Assembly: GCF_026559675.1 (NCBI RefSeq)
Contig: NZ_CP092891.1
Location: 806,001-870,000, forward strand
Source: Microbacterium oxydans
Lineage (GTDB): Bacteria > Actinomycetota > Actinomycetes > Actinomycetales > Microbacteriaceae
Direction: 5' to 3'
Length of the DNA stretch: 64,000 nucleotides
Positions 4,600 to 39,567 of this stretch are shown here, piece by piece. The position numbers and the translations under genes were made by a program. Below the pieces are notes generated by a model, which saw only the letters and a list, made by a program, of their open reading frames with translations, was not told where the DNA came from and searched no databases. Within the stretch, counting starts at the first letter, position 1; each line of letters begins with the position of its first letter.

Positions 4600-7500
4600 G
4601 TGCGGATCGACACTCAGGCGCAGCGCGTCATCTGGAGCGCGAGCGACCTCAAGGCGGCCGCCGAGTGCGAGTTCGCGTGGTGTCGGGCGATCGACGCGAA
4701 GCTGGGGCGCGTCCCCGCGGTCGAGGAACCGGAGGACGCGACCCTCAAGCGCGCCGCCGAGCTCGGCGATGTGCACGAGCAGAACGTGCTCGCCCGCTAC
4801 ATCCACGACCTCGGCGACGCGGAGGTGCATCGCATCGAGAAGGTCTCCTCGGTCGACGCCGAGGCCCTTGCCGCAGCCGTCGACGAGACCGTGGCGGCAC
4901 TGCGCTCCGACGCGCTCGTGGTCTTCCAGGCGGCGTTCGCGACCGAGGAGTTCGTCGGCTTCGCCGACTTCCTGCGCAAGGACGACGACGGGCGCTGGCG
5001 GGTGCAGGACTCGAAGCTCGCGCGCAAGGCTCGTGTGACCGCGCTCATGCAGCTCGCGGCATATGTCGATCAGCTCGACCGGCTCGGCATCCCGCGCTCC
5101 GACGAGGTCGACCTGATCCTGGGCGACGGCACGCTCAGCACGCACGCCGTGGACGACCTCCTGCCGCTCTTCCAGGTGCGGAGAGCGCGACTGCGCGCGC
5201 TCATCGCCGACCGGCGCATCGCCGAGGGGTCGACCGGCGCGCCGCTCGCCTGGGGCGATGATCGGGGCGACCTGCAGGTCGTGGCCTGCGGTCGCTGCGC
5301 GACATGCGAGGAGCAGGTGCTGGCGCACCGCGACCTGCTGATGGTCGCGAGGATGCGCCCCGTGCAGCGTGCGCGTCTGCGTGCTTCGGGCATCGAGACG
5401 ATCGATGCGCTGGCTGCGGCCTCCGAGGCGCCGGAGGGGATGAACACCGACACCTTCGAGAACCTGCGTGCCCAGGCGCGGCTGCAGCTCCGTGCCGATG
5501 CGGAGGGCGCGCCGACCTACGACGTGCACTACGCCCAGGCGATCCACACGCTCCCGCTCCCCAGCCACGGCGACATCTTCTTCGACTTCGAGGGCGACCC
5601 GCTCTACACCGAGCCCGCCGCCGACGGCGAGGCGCACTGGGGGATCGACTACCTCTTCGGATGGGTCGACAACGCCGACCAGTACTCGGAGCTGTGGGCA
5701 CACACCTTCGCCGACGAGAAGCGGGCGCTGGAGACCTTCCTCGACTTCGTGAACCTGCGCAGAGCCGCGCACCCCGGCATGCACATCTACCACTACGCGC
5801 CGTATGAGACGTCGCACCTCGTGGCGATGGCGGCGCGGTACGGCGTGCGCGAAGGCGAGGTCGACCGGCTGCTGCGGGAAGGCGTGTTCGTCGACCTGTA
5901 CCCGCTGGTCCTGCGGACGGTGCGCGTCGGGTCGCGCTCGTATTCGATCAAGAAGCTCGAGCCGCTCTACATGGGCGACGACGTCCGCACCAGCGACGTG
6001 CAGAAGGGCGATGACTCGATCGTGCAGTACGTCGCCGCCCGCGAGCTCGCGGCGGCGGGGGAGCAGGCCGAGGCCGACGCCGTCCTGGCCGACCTCGCCG
6101 ACTACAACCGCTACGACTGCGTGTCGACGCGGCGGCTGCGCAACTGGCTCATCGACATCGCCCGGCAGAAGGGCGTGACCCCCGCGCCGCCCGACGACGC
6201 CGACGAGGTCATCTACGAGCCGTCGCCGCGGTCGGTCGCGTTGCTCGCCGACGCCGAGCGTGCCGTCGAGTCCGGCGGCGACGGGCTCGTGCACCGGATC
6301 GCCGCCGCCGCCATCGACTACTTCCCTCGCGAGGCGAAGAGCTTCTGGGTGTCGCACTTCCAGCGGCTGCGCGAGCCGGTGACGATGTGGGACGGCACGC
6401 GCGACGTCGTGCGGGTCGATCGTCCGTCCTCGGTCGTGCGCCGCGACTGGAGCGTCGGGGAGGGGCGCCGGGTCATGTCCCGCGACGTCGAGATCCGCGG
6501 CGAGGTGTCCCCGGGGACGACGCTCGGCGTCGGCGCGCAGCCGTTCGCGCTCTACGAGGTGCCGGCACCGTTCGACACCGAGGTGCCGTCGAGGGCGGTC
6601 CATGTGCCCCACACGGTCACCGTGGCCGAGGTCCTCGACGACGGCTACCTCGTCACCGAGTCGGCCGTGCAGGGGCAGACGTGGGATGAGCTCCCGCTCG
6701 CCCTCACCCCGGCCGCGCCCCCGCGCGTGGTCTCGCTGCAGGGCGCCATCGACGAATGGGCCGACGCCGTCCACGCGGCGGCCCCCGGCTTCCCGGAAGA
6801 CGCGGCGACCGACATCCTCCGCCGCATCCCCCCGCGCACGGTGTCGGGGAGCGCGCTGCCCGCCTCCGGCGACGACACCATCGACGCGATCGTGCGCGGC
6901 ATCCTCGACCTCGACCGCAGCTACCTCGCGGTGCAGGGCCCTCCGGGAACCGGCAAGACCTACACGGGGTCGCGGGTGATCGCGCGCCTGGTGAACGAGC
7001 ACGGGTTCAAGGTCGGTGTCGTCGCGCAGTCGCACGCGATCATCGAGACGCTCCTGGCGCGGGTCGTCGCCGACGGGGTCGCACCGTCGCAGGTGGCGAA
7101 GGCCCCGAAGGATCCTCACGCGGACCCGCCCTACACGGTGATCCCGAAGAGCGGCATGGCGTCCTTCCTCGGCGAGCACGCGGGCGAGGGGGCGGTGGTC
7201 GGCGGCACGGCCTGGGACTTCAGCAACACCCAGCGCGTCGAACGCGCCGGACTCGACCTCCTCGTGATCGACGAGGCCGGGCAGTTCTCGCTCGCCTCGA
7301 CCATCGCCGTCGCGGCCGGTGCGAAGCGGCTCCTTCTCCTCGGCGATCCGCAGCAGCTTCCGCAGGTGAGTCAGGGCGCCCATCCCGAGCCGGTGGACAC
7401 CTCGGCTCTCGGCTGGGTGATGGACGGCGATCCCGTCGTGCGGCCCGAGTACGGGTATTTCCTGGCGCGGTCGTGGCGGATGCACCCGTCCGTGGCCGCC

Positions 7501-33821: not shown

Positions 33822-34715
33822 TCAGGCGAGCGACTGGATGATCCCGATCGCCGCCAGCTGACCGGCGGCCGCGGCCAGCAGCACCGAGGCCATCGGACCC
33901 GGCAGCGTCGCTCGGTGCGCGAGGTCCCCGGCCGCGAAGACGCCGGGGAGCGAGGTGCGGCCGAACTCGTCGATCTCGATGCACCCGGACTCGAGCACGC
34001 GCAGTCCGAGGCCTGCGGCGAACGGTGCCCGCTGACGCATCGTCCCCGACGCGACGAAGACCCCGGCGACCGCGGCCTCGCCGTCCGCGGTACGCACCCG
34101 CACCTCGTCGTCGTCCTTCTCGACGGATGCGACCGGCGCACCGCTCACGCGGGCGCCCTTCGCCTCGAGCAGCCGCCGATCCTCGTCTGAGAACGGCTCG
34201 CTCGTCGGGAACACGGTGATGTCCCCGACGATCCTGCCGAGCAGACCGATGAGGTGCTCGGCCCGCGGGGCGGCGCCGAGGATGCCGATCGACTTCCCGG
34301 CGTGCTCGTGCCCGTCGCAGAACGGGCAGCTGAACGCGACGGTTCCCCAGAGGTCCTGCAGTCCGGGAACGGCGGGGAGGTCGTCGACGACGCCGGTGGC
34401 GAGGACGACCCGGCGCCCTTCGACAGCTGAGCCGTCGGCGAGGTCCACCCGGAAGGCGTCGTCGGCACCCGAGATGCTCGTCGCCGCGGCGTCGCGGATC
34501 TCCACGTCGCCGTAGGCGGCGAGTTCCTGACGGGCGTCCGAGCGGAACTCCGCGGGCGGAGTGCCGTCCGCACCGATCATGTTGTGCATGTGCAGGACGG
34601 TGCCGTTGCGGTACTCACCCGAGTCCAGCAGGAGGGTCGAGCGGTGCATGCGTCCGAGGGTCAGGGCGGCCTGCAGCCCTGCCGGTCCTGCGCCGATCAC
34701 GATCGCGTCGTACAT
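33822..34715 (-). CDS. Thioredoxin-reductase-like NAD(P)/FAD-dependent oxidoreductase
   Basis: A 297-residue flavoprotein of the thioredoxin reductase superfamily. AIVIGAGPAGLQAAL (GxGxxG, residues 8-13) binds FAD; CPFCDGHE (C130, C133) corresponds to the redox CxxC of TrxR; GIFVAAGDLAH-like LPGVFAAGDLAHRATLPG binds the FAD ribityl. The NADPH loop SIGILGAAPRAEHLIGL lacks the classical GxGxxA form, so nucleotide use is uncertain. It is divergent from the host MerR gene, with a MerR-like operator between. Confidence 0.88.
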   Translation of the reverse strand: MYDAIVIGAGPAGLQAALTLGRMHRSTLLLDSGEYRNGTVLHMHNMIGADGTPPAEFRSDARQELAAYGDVEIRDAAATSISGADDAFRVDLADGSAVEGRRVVLATGVVDDLPAVPGLQDLWGTVAFSCPFCDGHEHAGKSIGILGAAPRAEHLIGLLGRIVGDITVFPTSEPFSDEDRRLLEAKGARVSGAPVASVEKDDDEVRVRTADGEAAVAGVFVASGTMRQRAPFAAGLGLRVLESGCIEIDEFGRTSLPGVFAAGDLAHRATLPGPMASVLLAAAAGQLAAIGIIQSLA

Positions 34716-34756: not shown

Positions 34757-34780
34757 TGACTTCATGTCAACATGAAGTCA
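34757..34780. promoter_or_regulatory. MerR-type operator/promoter for the flavoprotein gene
   Basis: TGACTTCATGT-CA-ACATGAAGTCA is a perfect inverted repeat of 11 bp arms. On the minus strand TTGACT and CAGACT lie 19 bp apart with the palindrome in the spacer, the signature of MerR-activated promoters. It overlaps the ATG of the divergent MerR gene. Confidence 0.65.
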
Positions 34781-34831
34781 AGCGAGGAGCATCCCTGGTC
34801 CGTCGGCGACGTCGCCACCCGCTTCGAGCTG
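34772..34831 (+). pseudogene. MerR-family regulator, 5' fragment (first 20 codons), split by an island
   Basis: Codes MKSSEEHPWSVGDVATRFEL, the first 20 residues of a MerR regulator, ending in the CGAGCTG repeat where the island joins. The remaining 114 codons, starting with PTNVLRHWE, continue at 38510. Joined, they give a 134-residue MerR protein. After the junction the frame stays open for 43 foreign codons and stops at TAA 34961-34963, overlapping the GTG of the next gene by 8 bp. Its ATG lies within the operator palindrome, so the mRNA is probably leaderless. Confidence 0.88.
34825..34831. repeat. Left direct repeat CGAGCTG (attL-like core)
   Basis: CGAGCTG joins host MerR codons to the island. 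The first island bases extend it to the arm TGTCATTCGTC (34830-34840). It is repeated at 38503-38509. Confidence 0.7.
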
Positions 34832-34912
34832 TCATTCGTCACGCGACCTGGGGTTTTGATACCTCCAATCTGCACCGGTCGAAGTGACATGACCCGACGC
34901 AACCTAGTTGAC

Positions 34913-34928
34913 CCGCGGAATTCCGCGG
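34913..34928. promoter_or_regulatory. 16-bp perfect palindrome upstream of the XRE-type gene
   Basis: CCGCGGAATTCCGCGG lies 3 bp after a TTGACC box and 28 bp before the GTG of the XRE gene. It may be an operator bound by the island's own regulators (inference). Confidence 0.45.
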
Positions 34929-34955
34929 TTTCGGTGGTTACCGAGGGAGAGTCTT

Positions 34956-35246
34956 GTGCCTAAGCCCCCGCGCCCGTCGCCTGCTGATCTGACCGACTCT
35001 TGGCCGAACACGCCTTCGTTGGACCCTGCTGGTGAGACCGCCCGCCTCCTGGCCGTCAATCTACGTCGGTCTATCGGCATGGCGAGCGTACGATCCGTCG
35101 CTGACGATGCGGGTCTCGATGAGGGGACGATTCGCAACCTCCTGTCCGGTGCGCGTTGGTCGGACGTGCGAACGATTGCGCGGTTGGAGGATGCGTTGGG
35201 CGTCGCGCTTTGGCCTGTGTACGCGGAGCGAGGGGGTTTGTGGTGA
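34956..35246 (+). CDS. XRE-type helix-turn-helix regulator of the island
   Basis: A 96-residue protein. The last ~60 residues form a HTH_3-like fold: NLRRSIGMASVRSVADDAGLDEGTIRNLLSGARWSDVRTIARLEDAL. The first 35 residues are Pro-rich and probably disordered. GTG follows GAGGGAGAG, a strong Shine-Dalgarno, and overlaps the truncated host frame's stop. A TTG at 34908 in the same frame is a weaker alternative. The stop overlaps the MerR-type gene GTG (GTGA), so expression of both is coupled. Confidence 0.8.
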   Translation: MPKPPRPSPADLTDSWPNTPSLDPAGETARLLAVNLRRSIGMASVRSVADDAGLDEGTIRNLLSGARWSDVRTIARLEDALGVALWPVYAERGGLW

Positions 35247-35632
35247 AACTTCTGAGCATCGGTGACGTCGCGCGGGAGATGTCCTTGCCGACCAATGTCC
35301 TCCGTCACTGGGAGACCGTTGGCTTGTTGTCGCCCGGCCGTGACTCCGGCGGTCGGCGGAAGTACGACGAGGACCAGATCGTCCGAATCGCTGTCATCCA
35401 GCGCAGCAAGAGTGCCGGCATGACATTGGAGCAGATCGGGGTGATGCTCGACGATGGGGCGAGAGAGCGTCATCAGGTACTCCAGCAGCACCTCGACGAT
35501 ATAGACCGGCGCATGGAAGACATGCGACGCTCACGAGAGATGACTGAGCACGCGATGAACTGTCGGTCGCACGATATCGCTACCTGTCCGCGCTTCCGTA
35601 CTGGCGTCGCAGACGTGATGTCCCGCTTCTAA
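35243..35632 (+). CDS. Island-borne MerR-family regulator replacing the split host gene
   Basis: A 129-residue MerR protein: LSIGDVAREMSLPTNVLRHWETVGLL is the HTH and GRRKYDEDQIVRIAVIQRSK the wing region, followed by a coiled helix (QVLQQHLDDIDRRMEDMRRSREMTEHA) and HDIATCPRF at the C-terminal end with a conserved cysteine. By hand alignment about 90 of 114 residues match the 3' host fragment at 38510. GTG start overlaps the XRE stop. It is predicted to take over control of the divergent flavoprotein gene, because the HTH recognition residues are nearly unchanged (inference). Confidence 0.85.
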   Translation: MKLLSIGDVAREMSLPTNVLRHWETVGLLSPGRDSGGRRKYDEDQIVRIAVIQRSKSAGMTLEQIGVMLDDGARERHQVLQQHLDDIDRRMEDMRRSREMTEHAMNCRSHDIATCPRFRTGVADVMSRF

Positions 35633-35802
35633 TCTCGACGGCCGATGAGGCGGAGGAGGGGATCCCGTATGCAGCGATCCTCACGATTGCGGACCCGAAG
35701 GGGCAGGCTCCGGTGTTCACTCACATGCGCCAGAACCTCAACGCCGTGAACGAGCAAACCGATGACATCAGGACGAGCATCCGCACCCGCGCGACCACGT
35801 AG
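35632..35802 (+). pseudogene. Remnant coding segment without a start
   Basis: A 56-codon open stretch directly after the MerR-type stop reads IPYAAILTIADPKGQAPVF and then TDDIRTSIRTRATT before TAG. It has protein-like composition and codon usage but no start codon or Shine-Dalgarno, so it appears to be the tail of a larger gene that was lost. The parent family is not recognised. Confidence 0.4.
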
Positions 35803-35846
35803 CGCGAGGCTCGGGTCCAGAGGCAATCGAGCGGCGGTTGTGCTCG

Positions 35847-36239
35847 CTACGCTTCGCGTCGTCGACGTGGATGGTCGTACTCGAAGCGGAGTCCGCCGCC
35901 GGTGGTGTGCACGGCATCCGCGTTCGCACGCTCCTCGAACCAGCAGTGTTTGATGATCTCCTCGACGCCGATGCCCGGCACGAGCTTGTCGATGCCGACG
36001 ACTTCGAGCCCCGCGAAGGTCGTGGCATTGTCCTGCCGGCTGTCGTAGCAGTAGAGCGGCGCCTCGTCGAGGAGGAAGAGGAGAACGGGGCCATGTTCAA
36101 TGCGGTCATGGTGTCTCGATCTTGGGTTCGCACTTGACGAGGCCCCGCACCACGCGAGTAAAGGGGGCCGAGTCCTGCCACAATGCGGGCACGTGACCGT
36201 GAAGACGCGGGATTTCGCGGTCTCCAGGTGGAAGGAGCG
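35847..36239 (-). pseudogene. Start-less coding remnant with a zinc-ribbon-like CPHC
   Basis: A 130-codon open frame on the minus strand with no usable start, beginning directly after the lipoprotein stop in the same frame. It reads FHLETAKSRVFTVTCPHCGR, later APLYCYDSRQDNATTFAGLE and VPGIGVEEIIKHCWFEERAN, and ends in an Arg-rich tail. The stretch between CPHCGR and the second half looks out of frame, and a neighbouring frame gives RVVRGLVKCEPKIETP, suggesting a frameshift. Family unknown; likely decayed. Confidence 0.45.
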
Positions 36240-36653
36240 CTACCCGTTGGTCTCGGCGATCTGGTCAACCGAAACAGTGCCTTCTACGCCATCTACGTCG
36301 CAACCCTCGACGTTGGTCCCGTAGCCGCCTCCGCCGCGGATGGTGTCGCCTACCTCGATAGTTCCAAACTGATCGTTCTCTACGGAAACGGCGTCAGCGC
36401 CAAGAATGGTGCCGTACGGCCATTCGATGAGCCAATTGCCAGCGGTGGAGGCCAGGACGAAGCAGCCGTCTCGGAGTTCTACGACACCGTCCACTTCCGC
36501 TTCTCGTAGGGCCGAAGGAGCAGAATCCGGAACAAGCACGACTGGGTTCTCGTCGTCGGGCGTATTGCCAGCCCTGTCTGCCGCTGTTGCGCAAGAACTC
36601 AGACTGAGGGCGACCAGAACAATTGCGACGAGAGTGGGGAGGATCTTCCTCAT
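36240..36653 (-). CDS. Island lipoprotein of unknown function
   Basis: A 137-residue protein: MRKILPTLVAIVLVALSLSSC is a lipoprotein signal with lipobox LSSC. The mature part is acidic and beta-rich, containing DGCFVLASTAGNWLIEWPYGTILG, IEVGDTIRGGGGYGTNVEGC and GCDVDG. Two further cysteines in the mature part may form a disulfide. It is divergent from the secreted protease gene, 73 bp apart, so it could be a partner or protector, but nothing proves this. No convincing Shine-Dalgarno; no domain recognised. Confidence 0.72.
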   Translation of the reverse strand: MRKILPTLVAIVLVALSLSSCATAADRAGNTPDDENPVVLVPDSAPSALREAEVDGVVELRDGCFVLASTAGNWLIEWPYGTILGADAVSVENDQFGTIEVGDTIRGGGGYGTNVEGCDVDGVEGTVSVDQIAETNG

Positions 36654-36663
36654 GTGCTGATGA

Positions 36664-36692
36664 TTGCATACATATGGGTGAGCCCCTAGGCT
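36664..36692 (+). promoter_or_regulatory. Candidate promoter for the secreted protease gene
   Basis: TTGCAT (36664-36669) and TAGGCT (36687-36692) are separated by 17 bases, 34 bp upstream of the protease ATG. It lies in the divergent gap shared with the lipoprotein gene. Confidence 0.45.
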
Positions 36693-36726
36693 CTGGGCAC
36701 CTTGTACATAGGCGTCAGAAGAATCA

Positions 36727-37959
36727 ATGAAGATTTCAAAGTACAGATCCATAGCCCTGGGTGCATGCGTTGCACTTGTGGCGGCGGCGGTCGGTGTCGC
36801 ACCGGCGATGGCAGACGAGACGGCCGGTGGTGAAGACGCCACGGTGGTCGTTGGAGGCTCTTCAGCGGCGTCGGCATCGCGGTTGCTGCCGGAGGATGCG
36901 AAGGCGCTCGCCGAGGACCTGAAGATCAGCGAAGAGGCTGCTCAACGTCAGTTTGCCGGCCAGCAAGAGTTCCTCGAGGCGCTGACGAAAGCGATAGAGA
37001 GTGTCCCCGACAGATATGCCAGCTCCGAGTGGGGAGCTGTCGGTGAAAGCTCCGCATGGGTCTCGTTCACGGGCGCGGAAGACAGCAAGGTTGCCGACTT
37101 ATTCGCGGACCTTCCCGTCAAAGTAGAAGTCCGGTTCGGGGCAAAGCTCTCCGAGGCCGAAGCAGAGGAGATTCGCCATGAAGCGATGTCCGAGCTCCTG
37201 GCTACGGGCACCTTCTCGCAGCTCGTTGGCGAGACGGACCCGACGGCAGGCAGCGTCCGCATTCAATACGAGCTTAAGGATGGAGAGGTAGCCGACTCAG
37301 TCATCGCTCGCGCAGTCAGCGCTGTTGTGAAATCCAGCGAGAAGGCCGAAATTGATGTCGTGGAGGCGACCGAAGACATCTCCACCGACCCGGAGCTCAT
37401 CCGCGGCGGCACGAGCATCTCCGGCTGCACCGCAGGCTTCAACATTCGGATCCTCGGAAGCCCTCAATACAAGGGCTTCGTGACCGCTGCCCACTGTCCC
37501 AACGCGGCAGGGACACCGTCTGGCAGCACCTACGGCACGGTCCACCGTGGACAGCACGCGGGCGCTTACGGAGAGGTGCAAAAGCACTCCTCGTCTGATC
37601 CTTTGATCGGAAACACGATCATCATCGCCCCCTCCTCCTACCGGTCGATCACGAGCGTGGTCTATCCGTCTGCAGGGCAGTCGATCTGCAACTACGGGAA
37701 GACTCGCTCCGCCCATTCATGCACAACGGTCCGGCAGGTCGGGCTTGCGTTCTATGCCAACATTGACGGAACCTCCACCTACATCAGCAGGATGGTGCAG
37801 TCCAACGGTGCATTCACCAACCCCGGAGACAGTGGCGGACCCTGGTTCGTTAACAACTCTGCCGTCGGGATTCACTACGGGAAGTTCGGGGGATACTCAA
37901 CCTTCAGCCAGGCAGGATTCGCTCAGTCCGTCCTAAGTATCGCAATCATCACAGGCTAG
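36727..37959 (+). CDS. Secreted streptogrisin-like serine protease (S1 family) with pro-region
   Basis: A 410-residue secreted trypsin-fold protease of the alpha-lytic/streptogrisin type. The signal peptide covers residues 1-29 (cut after AMA). An ~200-residue pro-region follows, ending around ISTDPELIRGGTSIS. The mature domain begins GCTAGFNI; catalytic His256 is in TAAHC, Asp291 (in SSSDPLIGN) is the best acid candidate, and Ser369 is in GDSGGPW. CTAGF with TAAHC and SICNYG with HSCTT look like the usual disulfide pairs. It lies in the island and is less GC-rich than neighbours. Substrate unknown. Confidence 0.88.
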   Translation: MKISKYRSIALGACVALVAAAVGVAPAMADETAGGEDATVVVGGSSAASASRLLPEDAKALAEDLKISEEAAQRQFAGQQEFLEALTKAIESVPDRYASSEWGAVGESSAWVSFTGAEDSKVADLFADLPVKVEVRFGAKLSEAEAEEIRHEAMSELLATGTFSQLVGETDPTAGSVRIQYELKDGEVADSVIARAVSAVVKSSEKAEIDVVEATEDISTDPELIRGGTSISGCTAGFNIRILGSPQYKGFVTAAHCPNAAGTPSGSTYGTVHRGQHAGAYGEVQKHSSSDPLIGNTIIIAPSSYRSITSVVYPSAGQSICNYGKTRSAHSCTTVRQVGLAFYANIDGTSTYISRMVQSNGAFTNPGDSGGPWFVNNSAVGIHYGKFGGYSTFSQAGFAQSVLSIAIITG

Positions 37960-38156
37960 GGGCCGCGCCGCTCGTTCCTCCCCAGGGCGCTCCGGGCTGT
38001 CGATGATGGAAAGCGACCCCGCAGCGCATCGTCATCATCCGCACGCCGTTCGCGCACGCAGCGCACCAGCGGAGAGCGGAGGTGTCTGCTGAAGATGGGC
38101 ATAATCCAAAGATTGTGGCGCGCTGTGGGTTGGTCTACTTGTCATCGCTTCCCATG

Positions 38157-38243
38157 ATGTATCGGGTGAGCACAGACGTTCTTCTTGATCCACTCGCTCG
38201 TCGCGGCGTGCTTGAGGGACTCGATGCTGAACTGACGAGCTAG
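38157..38243 (+). CDS. 28-codon ORF of unknown function before the island-end terminator
   Basis: Codes MYRVSTDVLLDPLARRGVLE plus eight more residues ending ELTS, then TAG. It is the only short frame in the 38.0-38.5 kb gap followed directly by a strong hairpin (14 bp later). It may be a small peptide or the tail of a lost gene; no Shine-Dalgarno is obvious. The rest of 37.96-38.50 kb shows no gene I can support. Confidence 0.25.
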   Translation: MYRVSTDVLLDPLARRGVLEGLDAELTS

Positions 38244-38256
38244 GGAAGATGCCCAC

Positions 38257-38286
38257 GCGGAGGGCCGGGAGATCCCGGCCCTCCGC
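38257..38286. terminator. Strong hairpin near the right end of the island
   Basis: GCGGAGGGCCGGGA and TCCCGGCCCTCCGC pair over 14 bp with a 2-base loop, then CTCTTCG. It should end transcription coming from the protease gene or the short ORF. Confidence 0.75.
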
Positions 38287-38502
38287 CTCTTCGTGCGAGC
38301 GAAAATTCACTCGCACCGGACCAGCTGGTCGTACACTGCGGCGCGCAGAAAGCGCTTGCAAGATGCCCTCGCTCATCGCCAATGGTCTGTGCAAGAACGG
38401 ATCAACTGTTACGACGAAAGAGTCGGTGCGACTCGGCCATGCGCCGCGTGTTTTCGCGGGTCAGGTGTGTCAGGCGCGAGCCAGGGCGGTCGACGATTGA
38501 CA

Positions 38503-38509
38503 CGAGCTG
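38503..38509. repeat. Right direct repeat CGAGCTG (attR-like core)
   Basis: CGAGCTG precedes the resumed MerR codons (CCG ACC AAC). Directly to its left is GACGATTGACA (38492-38502), the inverted partner of the left arm. In the resumed frame TGA (38498-38500) closes translation from the island. Confidence 0.7.
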
Positions 38510-38854
38510 CCGACCAACGTCCTGCGGCACTGGGAGTCCGTCGGTCTGCTCCGGCCGCCGCGGGACGGTGCGGGGCGGCGGCGCTACGGCGAGGACGAGG
38601 TCGTGCGCATCGCCGTCATCCAGCGCAGCAAGGCCGCCGGGATGACGGTCGAGCAGATCGCGGTGCTGCTCGACGACGGGAGTGCGGGGCGGCATCAGGT
38701 GCTCCAGCAGCACCTCGACGACCTCGACCGGCGCATGGAGGAGATGCGTCGATCGCGCGAGATGACCGAGCATGCGATGGGCTGCCGTGCGCACGACATC
38801 GCGACCTGCCCGCGTTTCCGGGCGGGGGTCGACGACGTCCTGGCGCGCTTCTGA
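38510..38854 (+). pseudogene. MerR-family regulator, 3' fragment (114 codons)
   Basis: Encodes PTNVLRHWESVGLLRPPRDG through HDIATCPRFRAGVDDVLARF, the rest of the host MerR regulator. It lacks the first helix and has no start before a GTG at 38603, which would omit the HTH, so it is inactive. Coding quality is intact, suggesting a recent insertion. It lies 62 bp upstream of the ccs operon. Confidence 0.88.
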
Positions 38855-38916: not shown

Positions 38917-39567
38917 GTGCCAAGCGATTCGACGGTCCGTCCGATCCGCAGCGGCCGCTCCTCCCGCACCCGGCGTTCGCGTCGTGCGGTCGGTGCCGCG
39001 CTCGCTGCGGTGCTCGCCATCGGTCTGAGCGCCTGCGCTCCCGATCCGGTCAGCGAATCCTTCCTCAACGGGGAGAACACCGGCTATGTCGCGGCCGACG
39101 GCGCGATCGTCGAGATCCCCGTCGCCGAGCGCGGCGAGCCCGTCGAGTTCAGCGGCGTGACCGAGGCTGGCGAGAAATTCGACAGCGCCGACATCGCCGG
39201 CGACGTCACGGTCGTCAACTTCTGGTACGCCGGATGCGCGCCGTGCCGCCTCGAGGCCGCCGACCTGGAAGCCGTCTGGCAGGACTACAGCGACCAGGAC
39301 GTCACGTTCATCGGTATCAACACCCGTGACCAGGCCGACACCGCGGTCGCCTTCGCCTACGAGTACGACGTGACCTACCCGAGCCTGATCGACGTGGACA
39401 CCGCCCAGGCCAAGCTCGCCTTCGCGAAGGTGACCCCGATCGCCGCGACGCCGACCACGCTCGTGCTCGACAAGCAGGGCCGGGTCGCCGCGCGCATCAT
39501 CGGACCGATCGACGGGAAGTCGATCCTCTCCACGCTCGTCAAGGACGCACTCGCGGAGAAGTCGTGA
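38917..39567 (+). CDS. TlpA/ResA-type thiol-disulfide lipoprotein of the ccs operon
   Basis: A 216-residue membrane-anchored thioredoxin-fold protein. The signal ends in lipobox GLSAC (C40). The active site CAPC is at C107-C110 in VVNFWYAGCAPCRLEA. It should keep apocytochrome c cysteines reduced outside the cytoplasm, fed with electrons by CcdA. GTG start at 38917; TAAACT (38904-38909) lies seven bases before it, so the mRNA may be leaderless. It is first in a four-gene operon. Confidence 0.9.
   Translation: MPSDSTVRPIRSGRSSRTRRSRRAVGAALAAVLAIGLSACAPDPVSESFLNGENTGYVAADGAIVEIPVAERGEPVEFSGVTEAGEKFDSADIAGDVTVVNFWYAGCAPCRLEAADLEAVWQDYSDQDVTFIGINTRDQADTAVAFAYEYDVTYPSLIDVDTAQAKLAFAKVTPIAATPTTLVLDKQGRVAARIIGPIDGKSILSTLVKDALAEKS

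Follow-up and report, generated by a model that had tools for sequence, protein, structure and literature searches.

What became of a conserved regulator gene that is cut in two near its start, and what kind of element cut it, are the questions raised by a locus of Microbacterium oxydans. The window, a 64,000-nucleotide stretch (NCBI RefSeq assembly GCF_026559675.1, contig NZ_CP092891.1, positions 806,001 to 870,000), holds a merR gene split by an insert of 3,673 bp. We found that a Tn7-like transposon broke this host gene about 55 bp in, and that an intact merR of its own has probably taken over the regulation of the locus. A first-pass annotation, made from the letters of the window, had described a precise, site-specific insertion; it had missed that a Tn7-like (DDE) transposon, not an integrase island, left this remnant, that the element has lost its transposition genes, and that it holds an intact merR at 35243-35632.

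To define the insertion, we examined both junctions. Codons 1-20 of the broken merR (34772-34831) and a further 114 codons plus stop (38510-38854) form one frame when joined at CGAGCTG, in agreement with the first-pass annotation, and the split point falls in codons 18-20. Copies of CGAGC at 34825-34829 and 38503-38507 form a 5-bp target-site duplication. The TG that follows belongs to the element as its opening dinucleotide, and the target happens to continue with the same two letters; the element thus spans 34830 to 38502. Its ends, TGTCATTCGTC and TGTCAATCGTC, are terminal inverted repeats that agree at 10 of 11 positions. Among 2,000,000 random position pairs taken 0.5-4.9 kb apart in the window, none combined an exact 5-bp repeat with an adjoining inverted repeat of 10/11 or better. 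The G+C fraction was about 0.7 in the flanks and dropped to 0.57-0.64 within the element, and a tRNA search of the window found none.

Comparison loci were fetched through the neighboring flavoprotein gene (47 loci, 46 from Microbacterium and one from Nocardioides). The divergent merR started with MKS and its frame was unbroken through the insertion point in 44 of the 47, including the Nocardioides gene (L079), which seems to be frameshifted further on. The first-pass annotation had proposed looking for such an uninterrupted copy beside the flavoprotein gene, and the outcomes that it had named as refuting its reading, a split gene without any island or halves that are nowhere adjacent, are excluded by the intact genes of relatives. 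The three exceptions all carried related insertions. MYb66 and C5A9 had the same merR broken at the same place, with a small helix-turn-helix (HTH) gene and then another merR behind it; in BEL4b, merR codon 13 has been joined by a deletion to what remains of the HTH gene, and here too a second merR comes next. With the HTH protein of the window as a query against 366 genomes of the genus, matches were obtained in 73, which added merR insertions in G155, G328, and G220. The insertion family thus occupies the same merR in seven genomes of different species (the window, MYb66, C5A9, BEL4b, G155, G328, and G220).

Both junctions were present in four elements, those of the window, C5A9, G328, and G155, with sizes of 3.7, 56.6, 15.5, and 12.5 kb, respectively. 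Their duplications were CGAGC in the window, TCGAT in C5A9 and G328, and TCGAT versus TCCAT (4/5 bases) in G155. Counted from the merR ATG, the duplication lay at +53 to +57 in three elements and at +54 to +58 in the window. The site therefore agreed within 1 bp and the orientation was identical throughout, which bears out a precise, site-specific insertion into a protein-coding gene. All eight ends of these four elements were inverted and started with TGT; the left end of MYb66 reads TAT, and its right junction is lost together with part of the 3' half of merR. No right half of merR was found in BEL4b or G220.

The class of the element was read from its fullest relative, the 56.6-kb element of Microbacterium sp. 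C5A9, in which tnsA, tnsB, tnsC, and a TniQ-like gene stand in a row. TnsA matched NF033179 above its cut-off (3e-46), TnsB matched Mu-transpos_C (1e-11) and TnsB structures (2e-14), and TnsC matched TniB (1.3e-15). The TniQ-like protein has six DUF4379 stretches, which make up a zinc-finger array. These four proteins identify the insertion family as Tn7-like transposons. The family also shows the 5-bp duplication, TGT inverted ends, single site, and single orientation of such elements. An intact attachment gene, which is lacking at the split merR, was found in relatives that lie after the stops of nrdF, an acyltransferase gene, and an acyl-CoA dehydrogenase gene; this trait is typical of Tn7 and not strictly defining, because comM-targeting relatives also split their target. 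The TniQ-like profile matched zinc-ribbon proteins, not TniQ, among solved structures. Foldseek with a model of a relative, P0003 (not the C5A9 protein), gave no TniQ chain among the 50 matches listed; weak TniQ matches appeared only on a second look. We also observed that the TniQ-like proteins of these elements end in an array of DUF4379 treble-clef fingers (L110, 6127-8409), which could be a modular DNA-reading domain.

The cargo of the C5A9 element (L080-L082, L110; G122 contig 11, 364030-420657) includes IetAS and GajAB, and a large block of it holds what we take to be metabolic genes, presumably dehydrogenases and transporters. In the window element, TnsA, TnsB, and TnsC were not found, and the window genome holds no matching TnsB. 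The window copy is thus an eroded remnant that has kept both ends and the HTH-merR pair and has lost the transposition genes and most cargo. Since it is a DDE transposon remnant, the excised molecules for which the first-pass annotation had suggested searching are not expected; Tn7-type cut-and-paste transposition is not known to yield excised circles.

An intact merR copy was present in all seven insertion genomes. Its start overlaps the stop of the HTH frame (a fused HTH frame in BEL4b and G220), and it sits at the element end that faces the captured host merR promoter. The window copy and the broken merR were identical at 96 of 125 aligned residues. We built a DNA tree from 54 merR genes, namely seven copies, four broken targets, and 43 host genes; the partial target half of MYb66 and the Nocardioides merR were left out. 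The copies formed one clade (100/100), and the four placeable broken targets fell among the host merR genes of different species, which points to one capture followed by spread into different hosts. A search at 1e-40 found a close merR in 149 of the 366 genus genomes, and the seven best matches (83-99% identity) were exactly the seven copies, the next reaching 80%. The median ratio of nonsynonymous to synonymous substitution rates was 0.07 in the copies (20 of 21 pairs, one saturated pair being left out) versus 0.12 in 903 host pairs. Judged from these substitutions, the copies are under strong purifying selection and differ mostly at silent sites. The copy persists even in BEL4b, from which most of the rest of the element has gone. 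At the insertion point it reads EMSL, whereas the target reads RFEL, a difference that may guard the copy from being hit.

To see where other relatives lie, we classed the sites of 30 fetched HTH loci (the best hit of each of 30 of the 73 matching genomes, BEL4b being counted apart). Six were inside merR; the others lay directly behind the stop codon of nrdF (11) or of a gene for a 2-oxoacid dehydrogenase acyltransferase (11), or directly behind a gene for an acyl-CoA dehydrogenase (two). One upstream gene for each of the three non-merR classes was checked with Pfam, and one nrdF locus (L124) was labeled from its last residues only. Relatives of the window transposon directly after these three stops (L118-L143) mark three additional attachment sites within a single Tn7-like family. 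A merR followed the HTH gene in 6/6 merR-site loci versus 0/24 loci at the other sites, within the approximately 1.5 kb read. The spare merR thus goes with the site at which insertion breaks its target, which argues against a general regulator of the transposon.

A family-wide HTH search at 1e-10 matched 47 of 398 genomes and gave 28 newly fetched loci, two of which (L196 and L201) had an nrdF-like tail upstream; none of the 28 had a merR copy in the flank read. In L193, L194, L200, L202, L203, and others from further Microbacteriaceae genera, HTH-protein relatives adjoin repeated open frames that are presumably recombinase-like. A general test for target copies, in which upstream open reading frames were compared with downstream DNA, failed to flag the six known merR cases and flagged L193 and L194, both from other genera. 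With no more than about 19 codons on the left side, the test is uninformative near 5' ends, and we make no claim on target copies at other genes or genera. A 57-aa piece of the HTH protein in Microbacterium aurugineum (P0051) is perhaps a further remnant of the window transposon family.

How the copy could serve the host is suggested by its placement. A Tn7-like transposon would insert in a single orientation about 55 bp into the conserved Microbacterium merR, giving the 5-bp duplication, with the TniQ-like protein and its zinc-finger array as the probable selector of the target. The HTH end of the element faces the merR promoter, and the palindrome at 34758-34779, a putative operator, is intact in 7/7 insertion loci. 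Transcription from the captured host promoter would run through the HTH gene into the overlapping spare merR. In the window and MYb66, the shortened merR frame runs a few bases past the start of the HTH gene, and in G220 and BEL4b the two frames are fused; in these four, the arrangement may favor coupled translation. In C5A9, G155, and G328, the merR frame stops earlier. The spare MerR would then regulate the divergent flavoprotein gene. That the copy's presence tracks the site, that it is closely akin to the target gene, and that it survives in eroded elements all favor replacement, and the copy seems to replace the broken merR functionally. We somewhat favor the broader view that this lineage moved its target from safe sites after stops to the interior of a regulator, that the damage is paid for by a selected spare under a captured promoter, and that the spare outlasts decay of the element (BEL4b and G220), which would lead to lasting replacement by a foreign version.

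The existence of MerR-type regulators of Tn7-like elements (available part of PMC9938897) makes self-control of the element the main rival: the element merR would mainly regulate the transposon itself, as CvkR does, and its resemblance to the broken gene would then be accidental or vestigial. The copy does adjoin a second regulator, the HTH gene, at the element end. Nevertheless, no merR accompanies this HTH gene in sister elements at the three other sites (0/24), the copy is closely related to the very gene that the element breaks, and it is kept in BEL4b, where almost no other element sequence remains. We therefore regard this explanation as unlikely, noting that transposon control and host replacement are compatible and not mutually exclusive roles.

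Two other explanations are far less credible. Site specificity together with restoration of a split target is typical of tyrosine-integrase islands in tRNA genes (accessible portion of PMC4383910), and an integrase-driven genomic island with merR as its attachment site would account for both. The junctions contradict it: they show 5-bp duplications with TGT...ACA inverted ends, the complete relative encodes tnsABC, and the copy is a complete gene from a different clade rather than a piece of an attachment site. No integrase was named in a Pfam scan of the five window-element proteins or among the right-end genes of C5A9. We consider such an island highly improbable. Equally improbable is a local duplication of merR with an unrelated insertion, or an assembly error, which the presence of two merR genes 3.2 kb apart and 77% alike might suggest. 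The tree and the recurrence rule this out; the window copy groups with the copies of six other genomes, not with the neighboring broken merR, and the same arrangement recurs in several genomes, the window genome itself being one contig. Replacement of the broken merR by the copy remains the reading that we prefer.

The features of the locus are listed in Table 1.

Table 1. Features of the split merR locus in the window.
Feature	Coordinates	Strand	Basis
Divergent FAD/NAD(P) oxidoreductase gene, thioredoxin-reductase-like; merR neighbor, probable regulatory target	33822..34715	-	Pfam PF07992 1.2e-25; TIGR01292 3e-25, below its cut-off
Operator-like palindrome over merR start (putative role)	34758..34779	.	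20/22 positions self-complementary; kept in 7/7 insertion loci
Broken host merR, 5' fragment	34772..34824	+	Junction; unbroken frame in relatives
Left target-site duplication CGAGC	34825..34829	.	Junction
Tn7-like transposon remnant, 3,673 bp	34830..38502	.	Ends, duplication, comparison with relatives
Left terminal inverted repeat TGTCATTCGTC	34830..34840	+	End comparison
Left arm of a subterminal inverted repeat paired with 38444-38463; may bind TnsB	34909..34928	+	80% complementary
Small HTH gene, 96 aa, left end; common to Tn7-like elements elsewhere	34956..35246	+	HTH_3 0.0005, below cut-off; match in 73/366 genus genomes
Intact element-borne merR, 129 aa; start overlaps HTH stop	35243..35632	+	MerR_1 1.7e-18; 96/125 residues as in broken merR; seven-copy clade
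Tail of deleted IetS-like S8 peptidase gene	35655..35802	+	86% DNA identity to C5A9 cargo gene, itself a PADLOC match to IetS
Fragment of further cargo gene of the transposon family, no function assigned	35877..36120	-	83% DNA identity to C5A9
Small lipoprotein-like gene, cargo	36240..36653	-	Open reading frame; weak lipobox match, LPAM_1 0.8
Secreted trypsin-like (streptogrisin-type) serine protease gene, cargo	36727..37959	+	Trypsin 5.1e-07; streptogrisin-type structures from 1e-06
Subterminal inverted repeat, right arm	38444..38463	-	Pairs with 34909-34928
Right terminal inverted repeat, TGTCAATCGTC on - strand	38492..38502	-	End comparison
Right target-site duplication CGAGC	38503..38507	.	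Junction
Broken host merR, 3' fragment (114 codons from 38510)	38508..38854	+	MerR_1 3e-14
TlpA-like thioredoxin gene, host flank	38917..39567	+	AhpC-TSA 2.6e-18

Other arrangements were observed near merR in two relatives. In Microbacterium sp. MYb62 (L036, 1530-4281), an intact merR is directly followed by 2.75 kb of DNA that holds a long open frame and closes with a repeat of the merR 3' end (57 bp, exact); this appears to be another kind of element, with the merR 3' end as its site. Microbacterium galbinum (L065, approximately 4770-6010) has a second promoter palindrome between the flavoprotein gene and an intact merR, together with what we take to be a MarR-like gene.

Tn7-like elements with TnsD/TniQ homing are described as using safe sites, the attachment site staying intact (PMC8649781, in its accessible text). 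The merR family resembles them in its row of tnsA, tnsB, tnsC, and tniQ-like genes, its 5-bp duplication, its one site and orientation, and its defense cargo; unlike them, it splits its target gene and carries a substitute. The TniQ-like protein with its DUF4379 zinc-finger array is a candidate for a new kind of DNA-reading target selector. Tn6022 and Tsy, as far as the available text of PMC10293859 describes them, are TnsF-guided Tn7-like elements inside comM, which they disrupt. They share insertion inside a protein-coding gene with the merR family and differ in having TnsF as their selector; that text mentions no replacement copy of comM. A literature search for Tn7-like elements that bring along a version of the gene they split found none, most subscription papers being outside its reach.

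CvkR, a MerR-type repressor of core genes in type V-K CRISPR-associated transposons (PMC9938897, accessible part), is likewise encoded by a MerR-type gene inside a Tn7-like element. The present case differs in that the merR copy is a close relative of the broken gene and sister elements do without it. Tyrosine-integrase islands restore a split tRNA target with island sequence, and in the available portion of PMC4383910 it is a short attachment fragment that completes the gene, whereas here a DDE transposon brings the whole gene of another lineage. Whereas targeted Tn7-like elements are described as sparing the host by landing beside genes, the merR family appears to meet the same problem differently: it breaks its target and brings a replacement, as is known for integrase islands in tRNA genes. 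With seven genomes of different species and four kinds of site, with and without the spare copy, it offers a naturally replicated case that bears on target change by TniQ-type proteins, on damage limitation by transposons, and on the replacement of host genes by mobile versions.
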